DNA from: Natronospira proteinivora
GTDB taxonomy: Bacteria; Pseudomonadota; Gammaproteobacteria; Natronospirales; Natronospiraceae
Length of the DNA: 64,000 bases
Direction: 5' to 3'
NCBI RefSeq assembly: GCF_024170465.1
Contig: NZ_JALJYF010000001.1
Span: 1,178,001-1,242,000 of the forward strand
Positions 4,668 to 63,128 of the stretch are shown here, one piece after another. The notes below the pieces were generated by a model. It searched no databases. It worked only from the letters and a program-made list of their open reading frames with translations, and was not told the origin of the DNA. The stretch's first letter is position 1. Every line of letters begins with the position of its first letter. The position numbers were made by a program, and so were the translations under genes.

Positions 4668-6569
4668 ATGACCCGAACTGACACCCAATACCCACTGCTC
4701 TCCGGTATCGAGAGCCCGGAAGACCTGCGCGCCCTGGACCGGGCCGAGCTGCCTGCAGTGGCGGAGGAATTGCGCCGCTTCATGGTAACGACACTCAGTG
4801 CCAGCGGCGGTCATTTCGCTGCCGGCCTGGGCGTGGTGGAACTGACGCTTGCCCTGCACTACGCCTACCGGACACCCCATGACCGGATTGTCTGGGATGT
4901 GGGCCACCAGGCCTATCCGCACAAGATTCTTACAGGCCGTCGCGAACAACTGCATACCATCCGCAAGCCCGGTGGCCTCGCCCCCTTTCCCAAGCGGGCG
5001 GAAAGCGAGTACGACACCTTCGGGGTAGGCCACTCCTCGACGTCCGTAAGTGCGGCCCTGGGCATGTCACTGGCCAATCGGGTGCAAGGCGGCGATCGCA
5101 AGGTCGCGGCCGTCATCGGTGACGGTGCCATGACTGCCGGCATGGCCTTCGAGGCCCTAAACCACGCCGGCTCAAGCAAAGCGGACATGCTCATCATTCT
5201 CAACGACAATGACATGTCCATTTCCGAGAACGTGGGGGCCCTGTCCAACTATTTCTCCCGGGTGCTTTCAGGTCGCCTCTATGGCGGCTTCCGGGAAGGC
5301 AGCAAGAAGGCACTGGAACTGGTCCCACCCCTGCGGGAGTTGGTGCGCCGCTCCGAGGAGCATTTCAAGGGCATGGTACTGCCCGCCACCCTGTTCGAGG
5401 AACTGGGCCTGAATTACATCGGCCCCGTGGATGGTCATGATGTGGACACCCTGGTGGAAACCCTGAGCAATCTCCAGGAACGCCCCGGTCCGCAGTTTCT
5501 GCATGTGGTGACCCGCAAGGGCAAGGGTTACGGACCGGCGGAGCTGGATCCCATCACCTGGCATGGGCCCGGCAAGTTCGACCCCGAGACCGGCAAGATG
5601 GCCCCAAAGGGAGCCAGCGGCCCCAGCTATTCCCAGGTCTTCGGTGAGTGGGCTTGCGACATGGCAGCCAAAGACGAGCGTTTTGTAGCTATCACCCCGG
5701 CCATGCGGGAAGGCTCGGGCTTGGTGGACTATCACAAGCGATTCCCGGACCGCTATTATGATGTGGGTATCGCGGAACAGCATTCCGTCACCCTGGCCGC
5801 GGGTCTAGCCTGTGACGGCATCAAGCCGGTAGTGGCCATCTATTCCACCTTCCTGCAACGGGCCTACGATCAGCTCATTCATGATGTGGCGGTACAAAAC
5901 CTGCCGGTTCTGTTTGCCATCGATCGGGCCGGTCCAGTGGGCGGCGACGGCTCCACCCATGCCGGCAGTTTCGATATCAGCTTCCTGCGCTGCATTCCCA
6001 ATATGGCCGTCCTGGCACCGGCTGACGAGAACGAATGCCGGCAACTACTCTATACCGCCTATTGCCATGAGGGGCCGGCCGCGGTTCGCTACCCCCGGGG
6101 CCAGGGGCCGGGCGCCGTCATCGAATCCGAGATGAGCGAACTTCCCTGGGGCAAGGCCAGACAGATTCGGCAAGGCAAGGGACTGGCCATATTGTCCTTT
6201 GGCGCCCTGTTGGCCGAGGCTGTAGAGATTGCCGAATTACTGAATGCCAGTGTCTGGGACATGCGGTTTGTGAAACCCCTGGACCGGGATGCTGTCGAAT
6301 CGGCAGCCGGGGAGCACGAAACCCTGGTTACCATTGAGGACAATACGATTCAGGGCGGTGCGGGAAGCGCCGTGCTGGAATGCCTGTCGGAATTGGGCGT
6401 TGAACGCCCCACGCTGACCATCGGCCTACCGGATGATTTCCTGGGCCATGGTTCCCGTGGGGACGTTTTAGGGGAAGCCGGCCTTACGGTCGAGCAAATG
6501 CACCGGCGTATTGAGCGTTGGCTGACGACGCATCTATCCGCTGAAAAGAAACAGAGCCAGGTTTCCTGA
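4668..6569 (+). CDS. dxs: 1-Deoxy-D-xylulose-5-phosphate synthase
   Basis: Thiamine-diphosphate-dependent enzyme that condenses pyruvate and glyceraldehyde-3-phosphate, the first step of the MEP isoprenoid pathway; DXP also feeds thiamine and pyridoxal synthesis. The 633 residues show the DXS order: N-terminal ThDP domain with [13 protein letters not shown] and the [15 protein letters not shown] motif, central pyrimidine domain ([33 protein letters not shown]), and C-terminal transketolase domain with VTIEDN. Length is normal. ispA lies just upstream and folE2 43 bases downstream. Confidence 0.97.
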
Positions 6570-23924: not shown

Positions 23925-24665
23925 TTAATTCGAAGAGATGTACTTCTCTCGCCGGATGTTCTGAACCGGGAAACCGGCTTCTTTCAAGCGCGTGGCGGCC
24001 AGATCGATCATCTCCGGGTTGCCGCAGAGATAGACAATATCCCGCTCCGGATCCGGATTCACCGTATCCAGCTGATCCTGCACATAGCCCTTGTGGTCAA
24101 AGGCGCTGGGCTGTTCCGGCATGACCCGGCTATAGACGGCGTGGAAGTTGAAGCCATCGTGCTTCTCGGCGAAATGCCTGAAATCTCCCCCGTACAGCAG
24201 CTCCTCGGGGTTCCTCACACCCAAGAACAGCTCCACTTTGAAATCCTCCAGATCGATCCGCCGCTCCAGCTCCGGCAGCATGGCGCGATAGGGGGTTACG
24301 CCAGTACCGGTGCCAATCAGGAGATAACGGCAGGGGGGATCGTCCCGCAGGATGAAGCGGCCAAAGGGCCCCACCGCATCCACCGAGTCCCCGTGCTCCA
24401 TGGAAAACAACTTCTCGGTGGCACGCCCACCATCCACATGGGTCACCGCAATTGAGATGGCGGTAGCCTCGGCCTCTTCCGGAATGGAAGAAATGCTGTA
24501 ACTTCGCCGGAGCATGTCGTTTTCATGGGGCATATGCATGGTGAGGAACTGCCCGGGGATATAATCAATGACTTCCCCATCGGCGCGAGTAAAGGTCAGC
24601 TCCTTCACCCGGGGTGTGATCATGCGCGTGGATTGCAGCACCAGCTGGAATTTTTTGATCGCCAT
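23925..24665 (-). CDS. FAD-binding oxidoreductase, ferredoxin-NADP+ reductase family
   Basis: From the ATG at 24665 the protein has 246 residues. RRSYSISSIPEE is the FAD-binding RxYS motif, GTGTGVTPYRAML the pyridine-nucleotide-binding start, and YLCGNPEMIDLA the C-terminal NAD(P) loop. Such proteins move electrons between NAD(P)H and ferredoxin, flavodoxin or oxygenases. No iron-sulfur domain is attached. The C terminus (REKYISSN) extends beyond the aromatic end typical of Fpr, so the exact subfamily is open. It stands alone between the repeat gap and the divergent methyltransferase. Confidence 0.85.
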   Translation of the reverse strand: MAIKKFQLVLQSTRMITPRVKELTFTRADGEVIDYIPGQFLTMHMPHENDMLRRSYSISSIPEEAEATAISIAVTHVDGGRATEKLFSMEHGDSVDAVGPFGRFILRDDPPCRYLLIGTGTGVTPYRAMLPELERRIDLEDFKVELFLGVRNPEELLYGGDFRHFAEKHDGFNFHAVYSRVMPEQPSAFDHKGYVQDQLDTVNPDPERDIVYLCGNPEMIDLAATRLKEAGFPVQNIRREKYISSN

Positions 24666-24841
24666 GAACGGCCTCTCGCTTGACGGTCTGGATGGACCGG
24701 CACCCTGCCGGAATTGTCCCAAAAGCGGTATGCTAACAGACTGATCTATTTGGACCCCATACCGCCTGGCCGGCATGGGGCCCGGGAGACGATCGGAAAC
24801 CGCCTCCCCTTCCGGCAACTCCATTGACAGGAGTCAATGCA

Positions 24842-45477: not shown

Positions 45478-45491
45478 TTGACCCGGGTCAA
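45478..45491. promoter_or_regulatory. Dnr/FNR-type box upstream of nadA
   Basis: Perfect palindrome TTGACCCGGGTCAA, identical to the box between ubiT and the chorismate mutase gene at 58399. A -10-like TAAAAT lies at 45542-45547, which would place the box near -70 rather than -41.5. Confidence 0.6.
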
Positions 45492-45580
45492 GGCACAGGG
45501 ACCGCCTAGCTGGCACGCTCCGCGCAAGGATCGGAATGGTGTAAAATCGCGCCCGGATGAATGAGCAAGGTGATAAAACC

Positions 45581-46609
45581 ATGAGTGATGTTCACAAGCA
45601 GGCGCTGCCTGAAGCAACCCCGGAACTGCTGGAAAGTCTGAAACCAGTCTACGAGAAGGTCCGGCATGTGATTCCGGAGGTGGAATGGGCGGTGCATGCC
45701 CCCTACGTGGCACGCATCAACGAGCTGAAGAAAACGCGCAATGCAGCGATTCTGGCTCATAACTACCAAACGCCGGATATCTTCTACGGGGTCGCCGATA
45801 TCACCGGTGATTCCCTGGGCCTGGCCCGGGACGCGGCCAAGGTGGACGCCGATGTCATCGTCCAGTGCGGGGTGCACTTCATGGCCGAGACCTCCAAGAT
45901 CCTGGCGCCGGAAAAGACCATCCTGCTGCCCGACATGGATGCCGGCTGCTCCCTGGCAGAGGGCATCACCGGAGCCGATGTGCGCCTGCTCAAGGAGCGC
46001 TACCCGGGTGTACCGGTGGTGGTTTATGTGAATACCTCCGCTGAAGTAAAAGCCGAAGCCGACATCTGCTGCACCTCCTCCAATGCCGTGGAAGTGGTGG
46101 AGTCCCTGGGTACCGACCGGGTGATCTTCGCCCCGGACAAATACCTGGGCCAATGGGTGGCTTCACAAACCAATGTGGAGATCATCCTTTACGAAGGTTC
46201 CTGCGAGGTACATGAGCGCTTCACCGGGAAGGAAATCGAGAGCTATCGTCAACAGCACCCGGGAATCTATGTACTGGCCCATCCGGAATGCCCCCAGGAC
46301 GTCCTCAAGGAAGCAGACTATGTGGGCTCCACCGGCCATATGATCAAGCACCTGGACGAGACCCGTGCGAAGCAGGTGGTGATGATCACCGAATGCTCCA
46401 TGAGCGACAACGTGGCCGCCGAGCATCCCGAGAAGGACTTCATCCGGCCATGCAACCTCTGCCCCCATATGCAGCGGATCACCCTGCCCAAGATCCTGCA
46501 GGCCCTGGAGAACATGGCACCGGAAGTGACCGTCCCGGAGAAAGTCATCGCCGGAGCGCGGGATTCTCTTCAGCGGATGCTGGAGGTGGGCAAGAAGCAG
46601 GCGGCCTAA
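45581..46609 (+). CDS. nadA: Quinolinate synthase
   Basis: [4Fe-4S] enzyme joining iminoaspartate and dihydroxyacetone phosphate to quinolinate for NAD synthesis. Cluster cysteines are expected at Cys123 (DAGCSLAE), Cys208 (YEGSCEVHE) and Cys294 (CNLCPHM), matching the E. coli pattern. Substrate residues lie in [10 protein letters not shown] and the TSSNAVEV stretch. The ATG at 45581 has AAGGTG before it; an earlier ATG at 45557 has no clear ribosome site and would add 8 residues. nadB and nadC are not here. Confidence 0.95.
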
Positions 46610-50572: not shown

Positions 50573-51769
50573 CTACCCCGGTCGGCCATCGGCGCGGGGG
50601 CTGGTGAGGATGGGTAGATAGGCGATGGCAAAGATCAGCCAGGCCAGGATCCAGAAAAGCGCTGAGCTGCCAAATAACCATTGCATGGGGATGGGCGTCG
50701 AAAAGCCGGTCATCAGCCGCAGTACCGCCGCCAGAGTGACCAGTACAAACGCTACCGTAATCCACGCCGTCGCCTGAATCGGGCGGCCCGTATGCCCCAA
50801 GGAAACCCGTGCCAGCATGCCCAGGCCCAGGGCACCCAAGGCCCCCACGCTGACCGCATGCCCGGCCGTGGAGTAAGGCGTCCAGTCAAAGGCCAGACTC
50901 CCGGCGCGCAAGAAAAGGGAAACGGCCAGCCAGAGATAGCCCAGGTGCAGAATCCACAGCATGGGTTCCGGCCACGTCCCCCAGCTACGCCAGAGGGTCA
51001 GCTGCATCATCAACAGCACCGCAGCCCCCACCATCAAGGGAATGGCCATCACATTGAAGCCCAGATGATAGGCCGCCAGACCACCAAGAATGGTTATCGG
51101 TGCCGCCACGACCATACTCGCAGACCGCCGAACCGCCAGGTGGGGCAAGCGCCGTTCCGTGAAGAAAGGAATAATGCGTTGGCCCATAACCACCATGAGC
51201 AGCAACATCAAGTCCAGGCCACTGCGCATCATGGCAAAACGCCATTCCGGCAGCACCCCCAAAGCCGACAACTGAAAGACGGTGGCGGCCAATGCCACGC
51301 CGCCGAGAATGGGAATAAAGCGGTAATTGCGGCGATTACCGGCACGCAGCAGGCTGAGACTCAGCAGAAGCGTCGCCCCCCAGAGTGCGACTCCATCCCC
51401 AAGCAGCACCAGCGCCAGTGGGATGAGCTCGGGCAGAAAACCACCCAAGCGGGCCAGCAGCCAGCCAAGGAAGAGAACCAGGGTCGGCCCTGGCGAGGCA
51501 ACGGTCCGGCCAATCCAGTTAGCGGAAGCGGTCAGCAGAAAACCGATCACAATGGCCCCGGCGAAACCGAACACCATGTGGTAGCCATGCCAGAGAAAGG
51601 GATTCCCCGACAGATTCATGCTGCCACTGGCCAGCATGCCGCCCCACCAGGCCCCGTGGAAAACAGCGAACCAGGCCGCGGCCAGAAAGAATACCCGGAA
51701 TGGCTGATGAAACAGCACGGGCCAGGGCATACCCCGGGTCCTCGCGTCCATGGATGGGGTGCTGCTCAT
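50573..51769 (-). CDS. nnrS: NnrS family heme-copper membrane protein, copy 1
   Basis: 398 residues with about 12 hydrophobic helices. NnrS-type features are LFHQPFRVFFLAAAW at the N terminus, the WHGYHMVFGFAGAIVIGFLLTA helix (read in parts) and VMGQRIIPFFTERRL. NnrS proteins are induced with denitrification and protect against nitrosative stress. The ATG at 51769 has GGGAGA before it. A degenerate Dnr box lies 72 bases upstream. A second nnrS gene is nearby. Confidence 0.9.
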   Translation of the reverse strand: MSSTPSMDARTRGMPWPVLFHQPFRVFFLAAAWFAVFHGAWWGGMLASGSMNLSGNPFLWHGYHMVFGFAGAIVIGFLLTASANWIGRTVASPGPTLVLFLGWLLARLGGFLPELIPLALVLLGDGVALWGATLLLSLSLLRAGNRRNYRFIPILGGVALAATVFQLSALGVLPEWRFAMMRSGLDLMLLLMVVMGQRIIPFFTERRLPHLAVRRSASMVVAAPITILGGLAAYHLGFNVMAIPLMVGAAVLLMMQLTLWRSWGTWPEPMLWILHLGYLWLAVSLFLRAGSLAFDWTPYSTAGHAVSVGALGALGLGMLARVSLGHTGRPIQATAWITVAFVLVTLAAVLRLMTGFSTPIPMQWLFGSSALFWILAWLIFAIAYLPILTSPRADGRPG

Positions 51770-51840
51770 GTCATTTCTCCCGTCCCGATGTTGGGAATTG
51801 GCGCAGCCCGGAGTCTGCACCGAAAAGGCCGAGAGAAAAC

Positions 51841-52936: not shown

Positions 52937-54139
52937 TCAATCCCGCCGATGCTGTAGAAGCTTGGGCGCAAAGCCCAGAGTGAAAATCAAAAAGGCCAGA
53001 ATCCAGGCGATGGCCGAGAGGCTGTAACCCCATTGGGGCGGCATGATGGCCGGCCAGGCGGCCAGCAGGCGGGGGATGGCGGCAAGGGCTATCAGCGCAA
53101 AGGCAGGCACCAGCCAAAGGGGCGCGCGGATCTCATGGCCGCCATGCCCCTGGGTGACCCGGGCCATCATTCCCAGGGTCAGGCAGCCCATGCCACCGAC
53201 CGTGATCGCATGGACAGTATCTGAGAAGGCCATCCAGTCCCAGGCAAGGGAGCCGCCCCGGAGAAACAGGGCCAGCCCCAGCCAGAAATACCCCAGATGA
53301 AGGATCCAGAGCATGGGGTGCCGCCGGGTGCCCCAGGGCGACCAATAGAACAGACGAGCCATGAGAAAGCAGCCCGCGAACCAGCTGAACATGGCGGCCA
53401 CCCCACCCGGAACCAGCCAGGTAAGGACCACCGAAATCACGACGAAGGCGGTGGCGTAAAAACCCAGCCAGTCGGGATCCATCACATCCAGGTTGGGGAG
53501 CTTGCGCTGGGTAAAAAAGGGAATCACCCGCCCGCCCATGATGACCATCAGGATCAGTACCAGATCCACCGCAGCCCGCAACAGCCAATCCTGCCAGTGA
53601 GGAATCACCTCGATAAAGGACAGCTGTACCAGAATCGCCGCCAAAGCCAGGCCACCGGTAATGGGCAGAAAGCGCAGATTGCGCCGATTCCCACTCAACC
53701 ACAAAACTCTGGCCAGGGCGAGCGTCAAGCCACCCAGCACCAGGCCGTCACCGATCAGCACCAGCAGGGGTGACAGTCCCAACAAGGCGGCCAACCGGGC
53801 CAGTAACCAAGCCAAAAACAAGAACAGCAATCCCGGTGCATTGACGCTGCGATATCCGGTCCAGTTCTCCGAAGCGGTCAGAATGAAACCGCAAATTACT
53901 GCAGCGGCAAAGCCAAACAATAACTCATAGCCATGCCAGGCAAAGGAAATCGGAGCGGGTATCGTCCACAGACCCTGGAGATGGGCCAGCCACAGCAGCA
54001 TATGGATGACCGCATACGCAGCGGCGCCCAGAAAGAACAAACGATAAGGCTGTCTCAAAACGGAATGCATAAAGGGTTTCCCGGCACGGGCAGTGAACAC
54101 CTTGACCACCGTCAAGGACGACAACAGGCTCATCAACAT
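52937..54139 (-). CDS. nnrS: NnrS family heme-copper membrane protein, copy 2
   Basis: 400 residues from the start at 54139, with about 12 membrane helices and the same landmarks as copy 1: RQPYRLFFLGAAAY, WHGYELLFGFAAAVICGFIL and VIMGGRVIPFFTQRKLPNL (read in parts). AGAGG lies 6 bases before the ATG at 54139; an internal ATG at 54070 with GGGAAA upstream would remove 23 residues and leave the Dnr box outside the gene, so the start is uncertain. The copies are clearly diverged, not a recent duplication. Confidence 0.88.
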   Translation of the reverse strand: MLMSLLSSLTVVKVFTARAGKPFMHSVLRQPYRLFFLGAAAYAVIHMLLWLAHLQGLWTIPAPISFAWHGYELLFGFAAAVICGFILTASENWTGYRSVNAPGLLFLFLAWLLARLAALLGLSPLLVLIGDGLVLGGLTLALARVLWLSGNRRNLRFLPITGGLALAAILVQLSFIEVIPHWQDWLLRAAVDLVLILMVIMGGRVIPFFTQRKLPNLDVMDPDWLGFYATAFVVISVVLTWLVPGGVAAMFSWFAGCFLMARLFYWSPWGTRRHPMLWILHLGYFWLGLALFLRGGSLAWDWMAFSDTVHAITVGGMGCLTLGMMARVTQGHGGHEIRAPLWLVPAFALIALAAIPRLLAAWPAIMPPQWGYSLSAIAWILAFLIFTLGFAPKLLQHRRD

Positions 54140-54174: not shown

Positions 54175-55170
54175 ATGGACCTGGTCTGCCCGGCAGGCAG
54201 TTTGCCCGCCCTCAAGGCTGCCGTGAATGCCGGGGCGGATGTGGTGTATCTGGGGCTCAAGGATGCCACCAATGCCCGTCATTTCGCGGGGCTGAATTTC
54301 ACGCCCAAACGCATTCGCGAAGCCGTGGCCTACGCCCACGCCCGAGGCAGCAAGGTGTATATGGCCATCAACACCTATGCCGACCCTGCTGGCGTTGCGC
54401 GTTGGCGCAATGCCGTGGATCAGGCCGCCGATCTGGGAGCCGACACCCTGATTCTGGCGGACACCGGGGTGCTGGACTATGCCGCCCGCAAACATCCCGA
54501 CCTGCCCCGGCATCTGTCGGTACAGGCTTCGGCCACCACCCGCCAGGCCCTGGACTTCTACCATCGTCACTTCGGCATCCGGCGCGCTGTCCTGCCCCGG
54601 GTACTGGCGGTTCAGCAGGTCCGGGCCCTGGCCGCCGACACGCCGGTGGAACTGGAAGTCTTTGCCTTCGGCAGTCTCTGCATCATGGCCGAGGGTCGCT
54701 GCCAACTCTCCTCCCATGTCACTGGCCAGTCCCCTAATATGGCCGGGGTCTGCTCCCCCGCCGCCCATGTCCGCTGGCAGGAAGAGGGGGACATTCTGAA
54801 ATCCCGACTCAATGAAAAGCTCATCGACCGTTTCGAAAAGCAGGAACGGGCCGGCTACCCCACCCTCTGTAAGGGCCGCTTCCTGACCAACGGACAACGC
54901 CACCATGCCCTTGAGGCCCCCACCAGCCTCAATACCACCGAATTATTGCCGGAGCTCAAGGCCATGGGGATTGCCGCGGTCAAGATTGAGGGCCGTCAGC
55001 GCAGTCCAGCCTATGTGCAGGCGGTGACGCGAGTCTGGCGAGAACTGCTGGATTCCCTGGATCGCAATCCGGAGGGCTTCAAGCCGGCTCCGGAGGGACA
55101 AAAAACCCTGTCCCGGCTTTCGGAAGGCAGCCAGACTACCCTGGGTGCCTATGCCAGAACCTGGCAGTAA
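54175..55170 (+). CDS. ubiU: Oxygen-independent ubiquinone hydroxylase subunit UbiU (U32 family)
   Basis: 331 residues of the U32 peptidase-like family. Cys169, Cys176, Cys193 and Cys232 occur at the same positions as the [4Fe-4S] ligands of E. coli UbiU. With UbiV it hydroxylates the ubiquinone ring using prephenate as oxygen donor, so that ubiquinone can be made without oxygen. GAGGGAG precedes the ATG. ubiV follows after 28 bases and ubiT lies 2.7 kb away under its own Dnr-type box. Confidence 0.94.
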   Translation: MDLVCPAGSLPALKAAVNAGADVVYLGLKDATNARHFAGLNFTPKRIREAVAYAHARGSKVYMAINTYADPAGVARWRNAVDQAADLGADTLILADTGVLDYAARKHPDLPRHLSVQASATTRQALDFYHRHFGIRRAVLPRVLAVQQVRALAADTPVELEVFAFGSLCIMAEGRCQLSSHVTGQSPNMAGVCSPAAHVRWQEEGDILKSRLNEKLIDRFEKQERAGYPTLCKGRFLTNGQRHHALEAPTSLNTTELLPELKAMGIAAVKIEGRQRSPAYVQAVTRVWRELLDSLDRNPEGFKPAPEGQKTLSRLSEGSQTTLGAYARTWQ

Positions 55171-55198: not shown

Positions 55199-56071
55199 AT
55201 GCGCATCAGCTTGGGACCGGTATTGTATTTCTGGCCGCGGGATAAGGTCTTTGACTTTTATCGGCAGGCGGCGGATTGGCCCGTGGAACGGATTTATCTG
55301 GGCGAGACCGTCTGTTCCAAGCGCCGGGAACTGCAACTGGACGACTGGCTGGAGATCGGCGCTGAGCTTACCGAGGCCGGCAAAGAAGTTCTGCTGTCAT
55401 CATTGACCCTGATTGAAGCCCGTTCCGAGGCCGGTGTGCTTAAGCGCCTCTGTGACAGCGGTGTCCGCATTGAGGCCAATGACTATTCCGCCGTGGCCAT
55501 GGCTGAAGAACGGGGCCTGCCCTTTGTCGGCGGTCACAGCCTCAATCTCTACAATCGGCCCGCCATTGACGTGCTCAAGCGTGCCGGTATGTTCGCCTGG
55601 GTGCCGCCACTGGAAATGAACCGGGAACAACTGGCCCAGGTTATTGAAATCGACCCCGGCATCGAGACCGAGGTCTTCGCCTTCGGTCGCATGCCCCTGG
55701 CCTGGTCGGCCCGCTGCTTTGCCGCCCGTGCCCATAACCGGCCCAAGGACGACTGCGGCTTTGTCTGCATGGACTACCCGGACGGCCTCAGCCTGAAAAC
55801 CCAGGAAGAAGAAGACTTCCTCGTGATCAACGGCATTCAGACCCAATCCCATCAATGCTTAAATCTTATCCAACACCTACCAGAACTAAACCGCATGGGT
55901 GTGAACTGGATTCGACTGAGCCCTCAGTCCCGATATATGAATGAGATCGTAAAGTGCTGGCAGCAGGCTATTGATGGTGACATTACAATGAAGCTTGAGA
56001 CCCAATGGTTGCCTGGCGCCCCCGTTGACGGATACTGGCGGGGAATGCCCGGGATGACGGCAAGTCTCTGA
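55199..56071 (+). CDS. ubiV: Oxygen-independent ubiquinone hydroxylase subunit UbiV (U32 family)
   Basis: 290 residues. Cluster cysteines Cys39, Cys173, Cys186 and Cys190 reproduce the 13- and 4-residue spacing of E. coli UbiV (ARCFAARAHNRPKDDC and GFVC). UbiV pairs with UbiU for anaerobic ring hydroxylation. AGGAGG lies before the ATG. It is followed by a DUF3565 gene and a small exported protein in the same direction. Confidence 0.94.
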   Translation: MRISLGPVLYFWPRDKVFDFYRQAADWPVERIYLGETVCSKRRELQLDDWLEIGAELTEAGKEVLLSSLTLIEARSEAGVLKRLCDSGVRIEANDYSAVAMAEERGLPFVGGHSLNLYNRPAIDVLKRAGMFAWVPPLEMNREQLAQVIEIDPGIETEVFAFGRMPLAWSARCFAARAHNRPKDDCGFVCMDYPDGLSLKTQEEEDFLVINGIQTQSHQCLNLIQHLPELNRMGVNWIRLSPQSRYMNEIVKCWQQAIDGDITMKLETQWLPGAPVDGYWRGMPGMTASL

Positions 56072-56713: not shown

Positions 56714-57865
56714 TCAAGTCATACGAATCGATACCGGCAATCGGGCAAAGCCGCTGGCCGGAAATACGGCCAGCTCCGCCTGACCCCGACGGGCCGGTTG
56801 CAGATCCTTGATCTGCGTTAACAGGGATTCCATAAACACCCGTAACTCCATCCGGGCCAGGCCGGCCCCGGGACAGACATGGATGCCTGCGCCATAGAGC
56901 AGATTGTCGGCCGGGCTACGATCGAAGCACAACTCATCAGGCGCCTTGTGGGCTTCAGGGTCTCGGTTGGCGGCCACCCAATTCAGGGACAGCCGCTCTC
57001 CTTTTCGAATCAGGCGACCACCCAGTTCTACATCCCGGGTAGCCACGCGCCGATTAGCCCCCAGCGGGCCATGGCGGCGGAGGACCTCGTCAACAGCCAT
57101 GGGTATATGGGCTGGACTGCGCTTCAACCACGACAACAATCCAGCCTCCTGAATCAGGACATCCACCAGAATCCCCACGGAAGCAGAAATGGTCCCCACC
57201 TCGCCCACTGTCCAGTTGCGCAGAAGACTGGTGATGGCCTCTCGATCCAATGGCTGGCCATTGACGCGCTCATGCATCAGGGCTGCTGTTAGATCGGATT
57301 CCGGCGGAGCATCCTGACGGGCATCCAGAAGCTCGTCCACCATGGCACGGAAATCCACCGCAATGCGGGCCATGGCCGGCCGGTCGGCGGCCAGCGTGGC
57401 TGCATGATTGCGATGGTTCCAGTTGATAAGACGATCGGCATAGGTGCTTGGCCAACCTAGAAATTTGCACTGGGCCCGGGCGGCAAAGGGCAGAGCCAAG
57501 TCCGCCATGACCTCGGTTTCATCCTCTCGGATCTTTGCCAACAGCGCCCGAGTTATGTCACGAACACGGGGCTCAAAGGCCCTGATCCGTTCTGGGAAGA
57601 AATAGGGTTCGATCATTGCCCGGTAGGGGCCATGCTCCGGTGGGTCCATGCCGTTGGGGACGGAGATATGTCGGGACACTGCATTGCTGAAACTGTCGTG
57701 ATCATGGAGCACGCGCAAGACATCGGCATGCCGAAAGAGCGACCATCCCTGATAATCACTCCAAGCCACCGGACAACGTCGACGCATCTCATCATAAGCG
57801 GCCCGCTGATCCCGCTGGACCACGGAGGCGCGAGGGTCCCAATCGGGCTGGCGCTTCTGCTTCAT
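56714..57865 (-). CDS. Cytochrome P450 lacking the I-helix acid, next to ubiT
   Basis: 383 residues from the ATG at 57865 (GGAG before it). Heme-ligand Cys331 is in YGAGIHVCPGAGLAR (Tyr replaces the usual Phe), and ExxR is Glu260-Arg263. In the I-helix, WTVGEVGTISAS has Thr225 but Gly224 where most monooxygenases have an acid; NO-reducing fungal P450nor also lacks that acid. It is 26 bases after ubiT in the same direction, so it is likely transcribed from the Dnr-type box at 58399. No ferredoxin or reductase partner is adjacent. Its reaction cannot be told from sequence. Confidence 0.88.
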   Translation of the reverse strand: MKQKRQPDWDPRASVVQRDQRAAYDEMRRRCPVAWSDYQGWSLFRHADVLRVLHDHDSFSNAVSRHISVPNGMDPPEHGPYRAMIEPYFFPERIRAFEPRVRDITRALLAKIREDETEVMADLALPFAARAQCKFLGWPSTYADRLINWNHRNHAATLAADRPAMARIAVDFRAMVDELLDARQDAPPESDLTAALMHERVNGQPLDREAITSLLRNWTVGEVGTISASVGILVDVLIQEAGLLSWLKRSPAHIPMAVDEVLRRHGPLGANRRVATRDVELGGRLIRKGERLSLNWVAANRDPEAHKAPDELCFDRSPADNLLYGAGIHVCPGAGLARMELRVFMESLLTQIKDLQPARRGQAELAVFPASGFARLPVSIRMT

Positions 57866-57891: not shown

Positions 57892-58341
57892 TCAAGATAC
57901 CCAGGCGGCACCGAAGGCCACGGCCCGGCGAAGCGGCAAGGGCAGCTCTTCCAGTTCAATACTGTCCAGAAGGTTCTTCACCAGCAATCCCATCTCCGTA
58001 TCCCCTTCCACGGTCAGCCGGCGCTCGAAGAACAGGGTATCCGGATCCTCACGGCGGCTGGCCAAGAGTAGAAATTCCCGCACACCCCCCGTCACCGTCA
58101 CTGCGGGACGGCCCCGCCCCAGGAGCTTGATCCGATCGTTCTCCAGAGTCAGGAACCAGTGCAGGCCGATATCGGAAATGGCCACTTCCACCACTTCCCC
58201 CCGGAGGAAGTCCAGATCGCCATCTTCAATCGACTCGGCCAGTACATTCTGCAGCAGCGGCTCCATGATCAGAGCCTGGCAACGTATGGGGGTGTATTGC
58301 ACCGGCAGTCTCAACAACTGAGGAAAGGATTGCATGAACAT
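57892..58341 (-). CDS. ubiT: Anaerobic ubiquinone biosynthesis accessory factor UbiT (SCP2 domain)
   Basis: 149 residues with an SCP2 lipid-binding fold: FLTLENDRIKLLGRGRPAVTVTGGV (in parts) and the FFERRLTVEGDTEMGLLVKN stretch typical of UbiT. UbiT binds ubiquinone intermediates and is required with UbiU/UbiV for oxygen-independent synthesis. A minus-strand GATAGT (58376-58371) lies about 41 bases from the centre of the TTGACCCGGGTCAA box, so expression is likely Dnr-dependent. Confidence 0.88.
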   Translation of the reverse strand: MFMQSFPQLLRLPVQYTPIRCQALIMEPLLQNVLAESIEDGDLDFLRGEVVEVAISDIGLHWFLTLENDRIKLLGRGRPAVTVTGGVREFLLLASRREDPDTLFFERRLTVEGDTEMGLLVKNLLDSIELEELPLPLRRAVAFGAAWVS

Positions 58342-58370: not shown

Positions 58371-58441
58371 ACTATCCGGGATGCCATCTGATGTTTCCTT
58401 GACCCGGGTCAATTCAGCACCCCCCTCATTGGCGCTAGGAT
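58371..58441. promoter_or_regulatory. Divergent Dnr/FNR-type promoter region ubiT / aroQ-hemerythrin
   Basis: Perfect palindrome TTGACCCGGGTCAA at 58399-58412. On the plus side TAGGAT (58436-58441) and on the minus side GATAGT (58376-58371) both lie at the class II distance (about 41.5 bases from box centre to start). One symmetric box can thus serve both directions. Confidence 0.7.
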
Positions 58442-58470: not shown

Positions 58471-58752
58471 ATGCGTGAACTGGATATCAAACAGCTACGA
58501 GATACGGTCGACGAGCTGGACGCCCAGTTGGTCCAACTCCTGGCCCAACGCATGCAAGGCGTCGAACAGATTCAATCCCTGAAACGGCTCAGCGGACAGG
58601 CCTGTCGGGAAGCCGAACGGGAAGCCGATATAATTCGACGCATCCACAGTACCGGGCGACGGCAGGGCCTGGACCCGGACTGGCTGGAATCACTCTTCCG
58701 AAAGTTATTCGAATTTTCCGAGCGTTTTGCCCGGGAGGAAGTGACGCCATGA
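58471..58752 (+). CDS. Chorismate mutase (AroQ-type) domain protein
   Basis: 93 residues, all-helical chorismate mutase type II: LRDTVDELDAQLVQLLAQRM is the characteristic first helix (in two parts), with Arg, Lys (SLKR) and the RLxRKL-like stretch placed as in AroQ. It would convert chorismate to prephenate. Prephenate is the oxygen donor of UbiU-UbiV, which could explain its presence here. Its stop overlaps the hemerythrin start by four bases. Confidence 0.85.
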   Translation: MRELDIKQLRDTVDELDAQLVQLLAQRMQGVEQIQSLKRLSGQACREAEREADIIRRIHSTGRRQGLDPDWLESLFRKLFEFSERFAREEVTP

Positions 58753-59204
58753 AACGCAGCCCTACCCTCCAACCTCTTTCGCGGGAGCATAATACGGCAC
58801 TCAAGCTGGCCCGGGATGCTCGCCAGGCCGCCGCCCACGGGAGCGAGAAGGAAGTAGCCGGGGTATGGCGGCGCCTCTGCCGTACCTGGTTCACCGAGAT
58901 GGCCAGTCATTTCCGCGCCGAGGAGGAGCTGCTCTTCCCCCTGCTCCAGGCACAGGGCGAGACCGAACTGGTAAAGCAGCTTTTACGCGAACATCAGGCC
59001 ATGCGACGAACCCTGGAGGATGCCAATCGCCAGGATCGCGCCCGGCTGGATGCGATTGGCAATGTGCTAAACGATCACGTTCGACGGGAAGAACGGGAAG
59101 CCTTCCCGAAGCTCGAAGCTTACCTGAGCCCGGAGACTGCGGAGAGAATTGACCATGGTCTGGCACTCACCCTGGCGTCTTTGAAGGAGAAACAGGCGTC
59201 CTGA
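58749..59204 (+). CDS. Hemerythrin-like (HHE) domain protein
   Basis: 151-residue four-helix protein with di-iron ligands in LSREHNTAL, HFRAEEELLFP, LREHQAMRR and DHVRREEREAFP. HHE proteins bind oxygen or nitric oxide or deliver iron for cluster repair (RIC/YtfE-like role), plausible beside Fe-S enzymes and denitrification. It is coupled to the chorismate mutase gene by ATGA overlap and lies just upstream of the dnr gene. Confidence 0.88.
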   Translation: MKRSPTLQPLSREHNTALKLARDARQAAAHGSEKEVAGVWRRLCRTWFTEMASHFRAEEELLFPLLQAQGETELVKQLLREHQAMRRTLEDANRQDRARLDAIGNVLNDHVRREEREAFPKLEAYLSPETAERIDHGLALTLASLKEKQAS

Positions 59205-59295: not shown

Positions 59296-59991
59296 ATGGA
59301 AACCATACAGGATGAAAAGCTCGAAGCACTGAAGGGCCATCGCCTCCTCGGCGTGCTTAGCGAGAATGCCCGACAGACCCTTCTCAAGGACAGTCTCGAA
59401 TTGGAAATGCCCAGTGGCACGACCCTCTTCCGTCAGGGAGAGAGTGCCCGTTTTCTGCACGTGGTGTTGGAAGGCCGGGTAGCCTTGATTGGCAGCTCCG
59501 ACCACAAAGACGAGACCGTGGTGGAGTTTTTCCGGGAAGGTGATGTCTTCATCATGCCGGCTGTGGTACTTGAAATGCCCTACCTCATGTCGGCCCGCAC
59601 CGTGGACGACTCCCGCATTCTCCTGATTCCCGCCACCCCCTTTCGGGAAGAGGTGGAATCCAACGCGGCACTCAACCTGGCCGTTACCCATGAGCTCTCC
59701 CGTCACTGGCGGCTGCTGATCCGTCAGGTCAAGGATCTCAAGCTACGGTCCGCGCCCCAGCGCCTGGGCTCCTACCTCCTCAGTCTGGCCGATACGGATC
59801 AACAGTCCGGGGTTGTGGAATTGCCCGAGCAACGCGGCATGCTCGCCCGCCGTCTGGGTATGACACCGGAGAATCTGTCCCGGGCCTTCAACCGCCTTCA
59901 GGACAGCGGTGTCCGCTCCCGTGGGCGTCAGGTGATGCTGGATGATATTCCCGCCCTCCGGGAATTTTGTGCCTATGACGAGCTCGTCTGA
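59296..59991 (+). CDS. dnr: Crp/Fnr family regulator, Dnr-type
   Basis: 231 residues: N-terminal cNMP-like sensor domain (about 20-140), dimer helix, C-terminal HTH (about 165-215). Recognition residues Glu192, Ser195 and Arg196 (PENLSRAFNRLQ) match the E..SR pattern of FNR, predicting TTGAT-type half-sites. Only one cysteine (Cys225) is present, so no FNR iron-sulfur cluster; Dnr/NnrR proteins instead sense NO via heme. Boxes of this kind precede at least five transcription units nearby. No clear box lies upstream of dnr itself. Confidence 0.88.
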   Translation: METIQDEKLEALKGHRLLGVLSENARQTLLKDSLELEMPSGTTLFRQGESARFLHVVLEGRVALIGSSDHKDETVVEFFREGDVFIMPAVVLEMPYLMSARTVDDSRILLIPATPFREEVESNAALNLAVTHELSRHWRLLIRQVKDLKLRSAPQRLGSYLLSLADTDQQSGVVELPEQRGMLARRLGMTPENLSRAFNRLQDSGVRSRGRQVMLDDIPALREFCAYDELV

Positions 59992-60116: not shown

Positions 60117-60185
60117 TTGATCTTAATCAATTAGAATCCACGGTTGACACAGGTCAAGGTTGACCGGGCTCCCCTTCCTTAAGCT
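60117..60185 (+). promoter_or_regulatory. narK promoter with two Dnr/FNR boxes
   Basis: TTGAT-CTTA-ATCAA (60117-60130) and TTGAC-ACAG-GTCAA (60144-60157) are both perfect palindromes, 27 bases apart centre to centre. TAAGCT (60180-60185) can act as a -10 for the second box at -41.5, which puts the first near -68.5. The rest of the 230-bp gap after dnr shows no gene. Confidence 0.75.
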
Positions 60186-60221: not shown

Positions 60222-61499
60222 ATGGCCTCGCCACGCTTCAAGCAGTACTCGGTACTCAGCGCCAATACCATTGCCTTCACGATCTGCTTCATGGTCTGGA
60301 CCATGTTCGGTGAAATCGGTGTGCCCATCGCTGATGAATTAGGTCTCAATGAGACACAGTTTGGCGTTCTAACGGCTGTACCGATTCTGATTGGCTCCCT
60401 GGTGCGCCTACCCTTGGGGGCCTGGACGGACAAGTTTGGTGGACGGCCAGTTTTTTTCATTCTCATGCTGGTCACAGTTCCAGCCATCTGGCTGGTCCAG
60501 TTTGCCACCGAGTACTGGCAGTTGCTGGTTCTGGGCTGCTTCGTGGGCCTGGCCGGCGGGGCCTTCTCGGTAGGCATCAGCTACACCGCCAAATGGTTCC
60601 CCCGGCATCAGCAGGGCACGGCCATGGGCATCTTCGGTGCCGGTAACGCCGGTGCCGCTGTCACAAAATACATTGCCCCCACGGTCATTGTGGTACTCAG
60701 CTGGCAGCATGTGGCGAATTTCTATGCCGCCATCATGCTGGTCACTGCGATTCTGTTCTGGTTCTTCACCTACTCCAATCCAGAACACAAGAACACTTCG
60801 ACGCCCACGCTCCGTGAACAGGTGAAGGTGCTTAACGACCCCAAAGTTTGGAAATACTGCCAGTACTACTCGGTGGTCTTTGGCGGCTATGTGGGGGTCT
60901 CACTCTATCTGACCCGCTATTACATGATGGAGTACGACATCGGTATTCAGGTAGCTGCCCTGATTGCCACCATCTTTGTACTCCCCTCCGGTGTCATTCG
61001 CGCTTTTGGTGGCTGGCTGTCCGATAAATTCGGCGCCCACAATGTGACTTGGTGGTGCATGTGGTCCAGTCTCATCTGCTTCTTCTTCATGTCTTACCCG
61101 CACACCGAGTATGCCATTGCCACTCGCGATGGCGGGACCATTGAATTTGCCTTCGGTCTGCCCATCTGGTTGTTCACCGCCCTGCTTTTTGTGGTCGGGA
61201 TCGCCTGGGGTCTGGGCAAGGCATCGGTCTTCAAGTACCTCTCCGATGATTACGACCGCAACCTGGGTTTGGTCTCCGGCATGGTGGGCCTGGCCGGCGG
61301 CCTGGGCGGCTTCCTCTTGCCAATCATGTTCGGCGCCCTGATCGACCTCACCGGGGTCTCCACTAGCATCTGGATGCTTTGCTTCGGTTTCACCCTGGTC
61401 TCGGTGATCTGGATGTGGTGGACCGAGCGGCGTGAGCCGATCCTCACCCGTGACCGCCATCACCAGCCCGCAGTGAAGACGGCAAGCGATACCGAATAA
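60222..61499 (+). CDS. narK1: Nitrate/nitrite transporter, NarK1 type
   Basis: 425-residue major facilitator protein with 12 predicted helices. Signatures are the GAWTDKFGGRPVF loop after TM2, GNAGAAVTKYIAP with the nitrate-signature Gly-rich helix, and GGWLSDKFGAHNV. NarK1-type carriers are thought to be proton-nitrate symporters that start denitrification. Expression is predicted from two Dnr-type boxes just upstream. narK2 follows after 33 bases. Confidence 0.9.
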   Translation: MASPRFKQYSVLSANTIAFTICFMVWTMFGEIGVPIADELGLNETQFGVLTAVPILIGSLVRLPLGAWTDKFGGRPVFFILMLVTVPAIWLVQFATEYWQLLVLGCFVGLAGGAFSVGISYTAKWFPRHQQGTAMGIFGAGNAGAAVTKYIAPTVIVVLSWQHVANFYAAIMLVTAILFWFFTYSNPEHKNTSTPTLREQVKVLNDPKVWKYCQYYSVVFGGYVGVSLYLTRYYMMEYDIGIQVAALIATIFVLPSGVIRAFGGWLSDKFGAHNVTWWCMWSSLICFFFMSYPHTEYAIATRDGGTIEFAFGLPIWLFTALLFVVGIAWGLGKASVFKYLSDDYDRNLGLVSGMVGLAGGLGGFLLPIMFGALIDLTGVSTSIWMLCFGFTLVSVIWMWWTERREPILTRDRHHQPAVKTASDTE

Positions 61500-61532
61500 C
61501 AATCTGAACCACCGACACGAGGAGCCTGTTTC

Positions 61533-63128
61533 GTGAAAACCAATCGGGACATCGAAAACTGGAATCCAGAGGACACCACACTCTGGGAGCGTGAAGGCAA
61601 GCGTACTGCCAACCGCAATCTCTGGATCTCCATTCCCGCCCTGTTGCTGGCCTTTGCGGTCTGGCAGATGTGGGGAATGATCACGGTTCAGATGCTGAAC
61701 CTGGGTTTTCCTTTCAGCCAGACTGAACTATTCACCCTAACCGCCATCGCCGGGCTGACGGGGGCGACACTGCGCATCCCTGCCTCCTTCATGATCCGAA
61801 TCGCCGGTGGGCGGAACACCATTTTCTTTACCACGGTACTCATGATCCTGCCCTGCCTGGGCGCCTACTTCGCTTTGCAGTCCACAAACACACCACTTTG
61901 GGTGTTCGTGGTGCTTGCCGGCTTGTCCGGTATCGGGGGCGGCAACTTTGCGGCCTCCATGAGCAACATCTCCAACTTCTTCCCGAAGAAACAACAAGGC
62001 CTGAGCCTGGGTCTCAATGCCGGCCTAGGCAACTTCGGTGTCACCACCATGCAGATCCTCATCCCGCTGGTGATGACCATGGCTGTATTTGGCGCCCTGT
62101 CCGGCTCCCCCATGAGCTTGGAAAGTTCCAGCGGTACGCTGATCGGTCGCATTGAAGCCGGCACCGACACCTGGATACAGAATGCCGGTCTACTCTGGGT
62201 GATACTGCTTATCCCCGTCAGCATTGCCGCCTGGTTCGGCATGAACAATCTACGCACGGTCACCCCGGCTCCCGGCCATCCCGTCACGGCCTTCGGCAAG
62301 ATTCTGGGACTTTACGGGGTGGGCTTCCTGGCAGCCGCCGTTGGCTTGTGGCTGTTCCTGCCACAACCGGTGGGCCTGGGCGTGCTAAACATGTGGATTG
62401 CCCTGCCGCTGATCGTGCTGCTGACCCTGGGAATAATGAAGCTCATCCCCGGTGCCATACAGACGAACCTGAATAAGCAGTTCGTGATCTTCAAGGATCG
62501 GCACAACTGGGCCATGACGGTGCTTTATATCGCCACATTTGGCTCCTTCATCGGTTTTTCCGCTGCCCTGCCTTTGTCCATCGAAGTCATCTTCGGGCAA
62601 ATGATGGAGAACGGTGAACGGGTATCAAACCCAGATGGACCCAGCGCGCTGACCTATGCCTGGATTGCACCTTTCATTGGTGCTCTGATCCGGCCGGTGG
62701 GGGGATGGCTCTCCGACCGCTTCGGTGGTGCGCTAATCACTCAGATCATGCTTGCCGTCATGGTCCTGGCCTCACTCGCCGTGGGTTGGGTGATGCTGCA
62801 GGCCTATTATTCGGAATCACCCCAGGATTGGTTCTGGTCTTTCCTTGGTCTATTCCTGGTCATCTTCGCCGCCGCCGGCATTGGCAACGGCTCCACTTTC
62901 CGTTCCATCGGCGTGATGTTCGACCAGACACTGAAGGGCCCCGTCCTGGGGTGGACCTCGGCCATTGGTGCCTATGGTGCCTTTCTTGCCCCGCGGGTCA
63001 TGGGCGAACAGATTGAGGCGGGCAGTCCCGAGATTGCCCTTTATGCCTTTGCCGCCTTTTATGCCCTCTGCCTGGTCATTAACTGGTGGTTTTACCTTCG
63101 CAAGAACGCTTACATCAAAAATCCCTAA
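61533..63128 (+). CDS. narK2: Nitrate/nitrite antiporter, NarK2 type
   Basis: 531-residue MFS protein with an N-terminal extension typical of NarK2 (NWNPEDTTLWEREGKRTANRN in parts). Nitrate-signature helices contain GGGNFAASMSNI and GLNAGLGNFGVT, and GGWLSDRFGGAL marks the TM8-9 loop. NarK2-type carriers exchange external nitrate for internal nitrite. Translation starts with GTG after GAGGAG. In some denitrifiers narK1 and narK2 are fused; here they are separate adjacent genes followed by narG. Confidence 0.9.
   Translation: MKTNRDIENWNPEDTTLWEREGKRTANRNLWISIPALLLAFAVWQMWGMITVQMLNLGFPFSQTELFTLTAIAGLTGATLRIPASFMIRIAGGRNTIFFTTVLMILPCLGAYFALQSTNTPLWVFVVLAGLSGIGGGNFAASMSNISNFFPKKQQGLSLGLNAGLGNFGVTTMQILIPLVMTMAVFGALSGSPMSLESSSGTLIGRIEAGTDTWIQNAGLLWVILLIPVSIAAWFGMNNLRTVTPAPGHPVTAFGKILGLYGVGFLAAAVGLWLFLPQPVGLGVLNMWIALPLIVLLTLGIMKLIPGAIQTNLNKQFVIFKDRHNWAMTVLYIATFGSFIGFSAALPLSIEVIFGQMMENGERVSNPDGPSALTYAWIAPFIGALIRPVGGWLSDRFGGALITQIMLAVMVLASLAVGWVMLQAYYSESPQDWFWSFLGLFLVIFAAAGIGNGSTFRSIGVMFDQTLKGPVLGWTSAIGAYGAFLAPRVMGEQIEAGSPEIALYAFAAFYALCLVINWWFYLRKNAYIKNP

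Follow-up and report, generated by a model that had tools for sequence, protein, structure and literature searches.

Oxygen dependence is the expectation for cytochromes P450, and the question raised by this locus is what such an enzyme does directly downstream of ubiT, among genes of anaerobic ubiquinone synthesis and denitrification. The window, that is, the whole stretch of 64,000 nucleotides analysed here from Natronospira proteinivora (contig NZ_JALJYF010000001.1), carries the P450 gene at 56714–57865 on the reverse strand (PF00067, 57 bits against a cut-off of 22.8). The open reading frame starts with an ATG at 57865 and encodes 383 amino acids followed by a stop codon; 26 bp separate it from the stop codon of ubiT, and it is the sole P450 found in the organism's own genome. 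All superfamily features (Cys heme loop, ExxR and P450 fold) were present in the translated protein. The ExxR motif (E260–R263) and the C-helix residues H78/R82 were intact, the heme motif YGAGIHVCPG (codons 324–333; 56867–56896, reverse strand) provided Cys331 as the ligand and had Tyr324 in place of Phe, and the AlphaFold model showed a P450 fold with a mean pLDDT of 89.5. The acid–alcohol pair of the I-helix, a usual but not universal P450 trait, was absent: the alcohol was kept at position 225, with no acid at 224. Residues 215–233 of the helix read LRNWTVGEVGTISASVGIL, including LRNWTVGEVGT, and codons 220–225, VGEVGT, lie at 57191–57208 on the reverse strand; Gly224 replaces the acid and directly precedes Thr225, and Glu222, three residues before Thr225, is an acid gained where Gly is normal. 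The placement behind ubiT, the VGEVGT reading and the Tyr for Phe had all been pointed out in a preliminary description of this DNA, and each was confirmed on the translated frame or its coordinates. An origin of these features by chance or artefact was ruled out by the conserved family described below and by the intact catalytic motifs.

To our knowledge, only one P450 has been firmly established as an NO reductase, and it comes from a fungus. In that enzyme, P450nor (CYP55A1 of Fusarium oxysporum), NO is bound at the ferric heme, two electrons are taken directly from NADH, and a second NO then reacts (PMC10743073). The window P450 resembles P450nor in its fold, in the context of NO metabolism and, together with its family, in having no acid directly ahead of the I-helix Thr. 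However, the I-helix of P450nor reads AGNAT, as seen on PDB chains, without the extra Glu, whereas that of the family reads GE[VIL]GT, and on this signature membership of the P450nor family is not supported. CYP55 was absent from the best 60 of 409 solved relatives, and P450nor was absent among the fold matches listed, which is not an exclusion. The likeness to P450nor that had been suggested at first was therefore not supported as kinship, since the best solved relatives were ordinary monooxygenases: EryK, CYP142, CYP109 and CYP125 by fold (22–28% identity), and EryK, CYP109 and CYP125 by sequence (up to 28–29% identity). CYP109, CYP125 and CYP142 have the class I bacterial P450 fold in common with the window protein and are steroid or lipid hydroxylases. 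EryK (CYP113A1, the erythromycin C-12 hydroxylase; 28% identity, Z 43) also has no acid in its I-helix (AGHIT); it differs in being an O2-dependent hydroxylase of antibiotic biosynthesis and in having no Glu three residues before the Thr. Because of EryK, the missing acid alone proves nothing: its loss is real and family-wide, but it is weakened as a hint of NO chemistry, being compatible with O2 chemistry. These matches, together with the retained Thr225, favour the strongest rival explanation, in which the protein is an O2-dependent class I monooxygenase acting under micro-oxic conditions on a by-product of denitrification, such as a nitrated or nitrosated compound, with electrons from a generic ferredoxin. 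We regard this explanation as somewhat unlikely, for reasons given by the family and its gene neighbourhoods.

At least 319 relatives of the window P450 were recovered by searching genomes and by a single GTDB contig scan; the 319 were found with a seven-row alignment as the query, and a single-protein query found none. Eighty of the 319 were kept (50–59% identity), and residues were counted in an 88-row alignment, in which a few rows duplicate one locus. Position 224 was acidic (D/E) in 0 of the 88 rows, being Gly, Ala or Ser instead, Glu222 was invariant, and position 225 was Thr or Ser in every row; position 324 was Tyr or Trp, replacing Phe. As the patterns used in the scan lay outside the I-helix, its conservation was not selected for. 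The unusual trait is a combination: no member has the acid at position −1, and all have an invariant Glu at −3. In the tree, the family sequences formed one group (support 82/84) with ordinary P450s outside it; the window P450 itself sat on a long branch of uncertain placement. The closest sequences, beside the family, were those of an AGHGT group (loci L003, L027 and L126), which have LRNW...GT in common with it and AGHGT instead of GExGT; the member at L003 has an NsrR-like gene and one resembling a nitroreductase gene in its vicinity. The substrate-recognition segments, placed by analogy, were more conserved than the remaining protein, unlike those of secondary-metabolism P450s, suggesting one shared substrate.

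Within the window's class the gene is rare, occurring in 6 of 369 genomes, and the annotated plasmid records examined label a family member merely 'cytochrome P450'. In the open literature searched, which leaves most subscription journals outside, we found no account of a P450 family linked to bacterial denitrification; this is not proof, and we regard the family as distinct, widespread and apparently undescribed, marked by an I-helix signature and a context of its own. Another unassigned P450 of a denitrifier, Hden_0697 of Hyphomicrobium denitrificans, was compared by description; it differs by its sox–tusA sulfur-oxidation locus, and a role in signal transduction has been proposed for it (PMC12423496).

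The surroundings of the P450 gene agree with the ubiquinone and denitrification cluster that had been recognized from the sequence alone. The reverse strand carries ubiT (57892–58341; NF047962, 135 bits, cut-off 46.9) and two copies of nnrS (52937–54139 and 50573–51820; PF05940, 304 and 289 bits, respectively), and the forward strand carries ubiU (54175–55170; NF047963, 547 bits, cut-off 440) and ubiV (55199–56071; NF047965, 379 bits, cut-off 275). Also on the forward strand are a gene for a hexameric tyrosine-coordinated heme protein (HTHP) convergent with the P450 gene (56374–56673; PF11534, E 7e-36), a hemerythrin-domain protein that is weakly RIC-like (58749–59204; PF01814, 59 bits; TIGR03652 below cut-off) and, by profile search, a Crp/Fnr-family regulator (59296–59991) and two narK genes (60222–63128). 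Just past the window end, narGHJI and molybdenum-cofactor-like genes were read by eye from the sequences. Elsewhere in the genome, one cluster (C1:1353128–1358230; positions 6128–11230 of L130) encodes qNorB together with a NirV-like protein and a NirK-like one that scored below the family cut-off. The organism thus has an NO reductase of the qNorB type; a cNorB query gave no match, and no cd1 nitrite reductase was found in the genome with PF02239. From the nar genes at the window and the NirK-like, NirV-like and qNorB genes elsewhere, N. proteinivora is probably a nitrate-to-N2O denitrifier. Its NirK may be of a divergent type.

The promoter region of the ubiT–P450 unit was consistent with this setting. 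A motif scan placed a Dnr/FNR-type palindrome, TTGACCCGGGTCAA, at 58399–58412, its centre about 64 bp ahead of the ubiT start, and a −10-like GATAGT read by eye at 58371–58376 lies at the spacing that a class II FNR-type promoter needs. The palindrome supports the Dnr-type promoter suspected earlier as a predicted element, and ubiT is the probable first gene of a ubiT–P450 operon. Six copies of the strict palindrome TTGAY-N4-RTCAA were counted in the 64 kb window against 0.08 expected under a first-order model, and five of the six precede nadA, nnrS/ubiU (54102–54115, between the two genes), ubiT–P450 or narK (two copies, at 60117 and 60144). The Crp/Fnr-family regulator encoded nearby is a candidate activator acting on these boxes. 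Among homologues, with related species weighing in the counts, a loose FNR-like box stood upstream of 15 of 78 P450 genes, whereas 32 of the 749 remaining genes at these loci had one (p 7e-6), and the excess of strict boxes was marginal (6/78 versus 24/749, p 0.055). Perfect boxes were also found 119–126 bp upstream of the gene in four Pseudomonas/Halopseudomonas members without local denitrification genes.

Two further genes with such boxes were observed. The quinolinate synthase gene nadA (45478–46609) lies behind a Dnr-type box in the window, and nadA adjoins the P450 gene in L045, L046 and L058. A small chorismate mutase gene (PF01817; 58471–58752, forward strand) has the Dnr-box intergenic region in common with ubiT; since the box at 58399 sits between these divergent genes, it could also serve the chorismate mutase, whose predicted product, prephenate, may matter for anaerobic quinone hydroxylation.

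Neighbouring genes across the family were called by codon composition and marker tblastn, as length clustering had picked antisense frames. A strict marker of denitrification, NO response or ubi function lay within 8.5 kb of the P450 gene at 32 of the 67 loci of at least 14 kb, compared with 1 of 40 control windows drawn from carrier genomes (p 1.3e-7); the markers were picked after some loci had been seen, and related species were counted separately. Counted by taxon label, linkage was found for 22 of 38. The linked state changed at least 10 times on well-supported tree branches, indicating that linkage was gained or lost repeatedly. Core markers were absent at 44 of all 83 loci, of which three had narG or norB and one an NsrR-like gene. 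The contexts were diverse: a heme-d1/nirS cluster in Halomonas, Billgrantia and Sideroxydans; nnrS, norR, NsrR-like genes, RIC/YtfE, Hmp-type globins, HTHP, narXL/narK and norB in various lineages; and, on plasmids of Paraburkholderia/Caballeronia, narGHJI, a peptidylprolyl isomerase gene, narK, one more gene and then the P450 gene, all on one strand. ubiU, ubiV or ubiT was near the gene in the window, Porticoccaceae, Marinobacter-like genomes, Mesorhizobium, Microvirga and Billgrantia. Linkage to nar, nir, NO-response and ubi genes taken together thus stood far above the background in several lineages without being universal; it was not consistent for ubi genes by themselves (12/83), and about half of the loci had no marker nearby.

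Even so, the genomes tested nearly always encode an NO reductase. NorB, as cNorB or qNorB, was matched in 37 of 40 carrier genomes, 34 of them with a cNorB match, compared with 68 of 229 genomes of the class, and UbiU in 37 of 40 compared with 63 of 229 (Fisher p < 1e-13 for each); the carriers are phylogenetically non-independent and include Alphaproteobacteria and a planctomycete, and the background was drawn from the window's class alone. The high frequency of UbiU bears on the suggestion that the P450 performs a quinone-related step, that is, one alongside UbiT, UbiU and UbiV in the ubiquinone pathway that needs no O2. The gene adjoins ubiT in the window and ubiUV in Porticoccus and Mesorhizobium, and it belongs to a ubiT-containing cluster in Marinobacter-like genomes. 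However, ubi linkage is one context among several, most UbiU-bearing genomes of the class have no such P450, and three carriers gave no UbiU match. In addition, UbiT, UbiU and UbiV are reported to take the place of the O2-dependent hydroxylations with no P450 involved (Pelosi 2019, cited in PMC12423496). A quinone step is thus very improbable, and quinone biosynthesis was rejected as the main role of the P450 because ubi linkage is inconsistent across the family.

The HTHP gene suggests another explanation, a heme-thiolate enzyme driven by peroxide (a peroxygenase or a peroxidase) that needs no redox partners and acts at low oxygen, perhaps together with HTHP. CYP152 peroxygenases carry Arg-Pro in place of the acid–alcohol pair. 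The substitution of the pair in CYP152 is documented, and in other P450s, too, changes to the pair make peroxide use more favourable (PMC10750395); peroxide electrocatalysis by HTHP has also been reported (PMC4813847). The GExGT family, in contrast, keeps Thr or Ser at 225 and has no CYP152-type Arg-Pro pair, and an HTHP homologue was near the P450 gene at only 11 of 83 loci, which makes a peroxide-driven enzyme improbable. The same 11 loci suggest that HTHP may belong to the denitrification gene set.

Neither a redox partner nor an NADH site was identified for the window P450. Within the family, Methylophaga and one Verrucomicrobium have a gene for an NAD-binding reductase directly after that of the P450, as the monooxygenase explanation would have it; against that explanation, no redox partner or catabolic gene adjoins the P450 in a conserved manner, the substrate-recognition segments are unusually conserved, and the linked genes serve anoxic metabolism. 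The lack of a conserved partner, together with the NO-regulon context, would also suit a heme protein that binds NO without catalysis, as a sensor or scavenger, or else a heme-thiolate enzyme with a non-redox reaction, for example, a dehydratase. Against this, every catalytic P450 motif is retained, as is the Thr of the I-helix, and no fused sensor domain was present; we consider this explanation quite unlikely.

Some possible electron-transfer proteins were noted. In the window, a FAD/NAD-binding reductase gene (23925–24837) has a strict Dnr-type palindrome at 24824 and is a possible electron donor of the same regulon; its product is 22% identical to the P450-adjacent reductase of L051. An orphan SdhB-like Fe-S protein was encoded at 11 loci; at the Marinobacter-like ones, its gene lies upstream of the P450 gene and shares its strand. 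In Halomonas and Marinobacter-like genomes, it stands near both the P450 and HTHP genes, without visible partner subunits (L041, 10580–11365; L039, 12567–13325). This Fe-S protein is a possible redox partner of the P450.

Here, we propose a model by summarizing the above results. Membership of the P450 in a denitrification/NO-response regulon is well supported and very probable, its induction being predicted. The explanation that we tentatively prefer as a whole, while granting that it may prove wrong, is an NO-linked accessory heme-thiolate enzyme of this gene set, made with UbiT. The soluble P450 and UbiT would be co-transcribed and activated by a Dnr/FNR-type regulator at low oxygen in the presence of nitrogen oxides. 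The P450 would then most probably handle NO, or a small molecule derived from it, and not varied organic substrates; NO-directed chemistry itself is a plausible but tentative part of the model. Glu222 and Thr225, which are separated by about one helical turn, would take the place of the distal acid–alcohol pair for O2 scission. At 100 degrees per residue, Glu222 could face the distal pocket, and the two residues may relay protons to an Fe-NO or Fe-NHO species, with electrons from NADH directly or from a partner protein. A more specific form of the model is rather unlikely: a bacterial P450 would convert NO to N2O, or take NO as a co-substrate, through a mechanism that arose independently of fungal P450nor and in which the relay acid was moved from −1 to −3.

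As the family occurs mainly in nitrate-breathing bacteria, often beside NO or anaerobic-quinone genes, it may be an overlooked enzyme of NO metabolism. A conserved P450 family that accompanies the genes of nitrate, nitrite and NO metabolism across several bacterial phyla and has a relocated Glu is a testable candidate for anaerobic or NO-directed P450 catalysis; if the proposal is true, an NO-directed P450 in many denitrifiers would be an uncounted source of N2O or sink for NO.

Genes for SelD, a methionine gamma-lyase-like PLP enzyme and a SLAC1/TehA-type transporter also recurred beside the P450 gene in Marinobacter and Comamonadaceae (L060, L061, L075, L080 and L102; L070, L078, L084 and L088).
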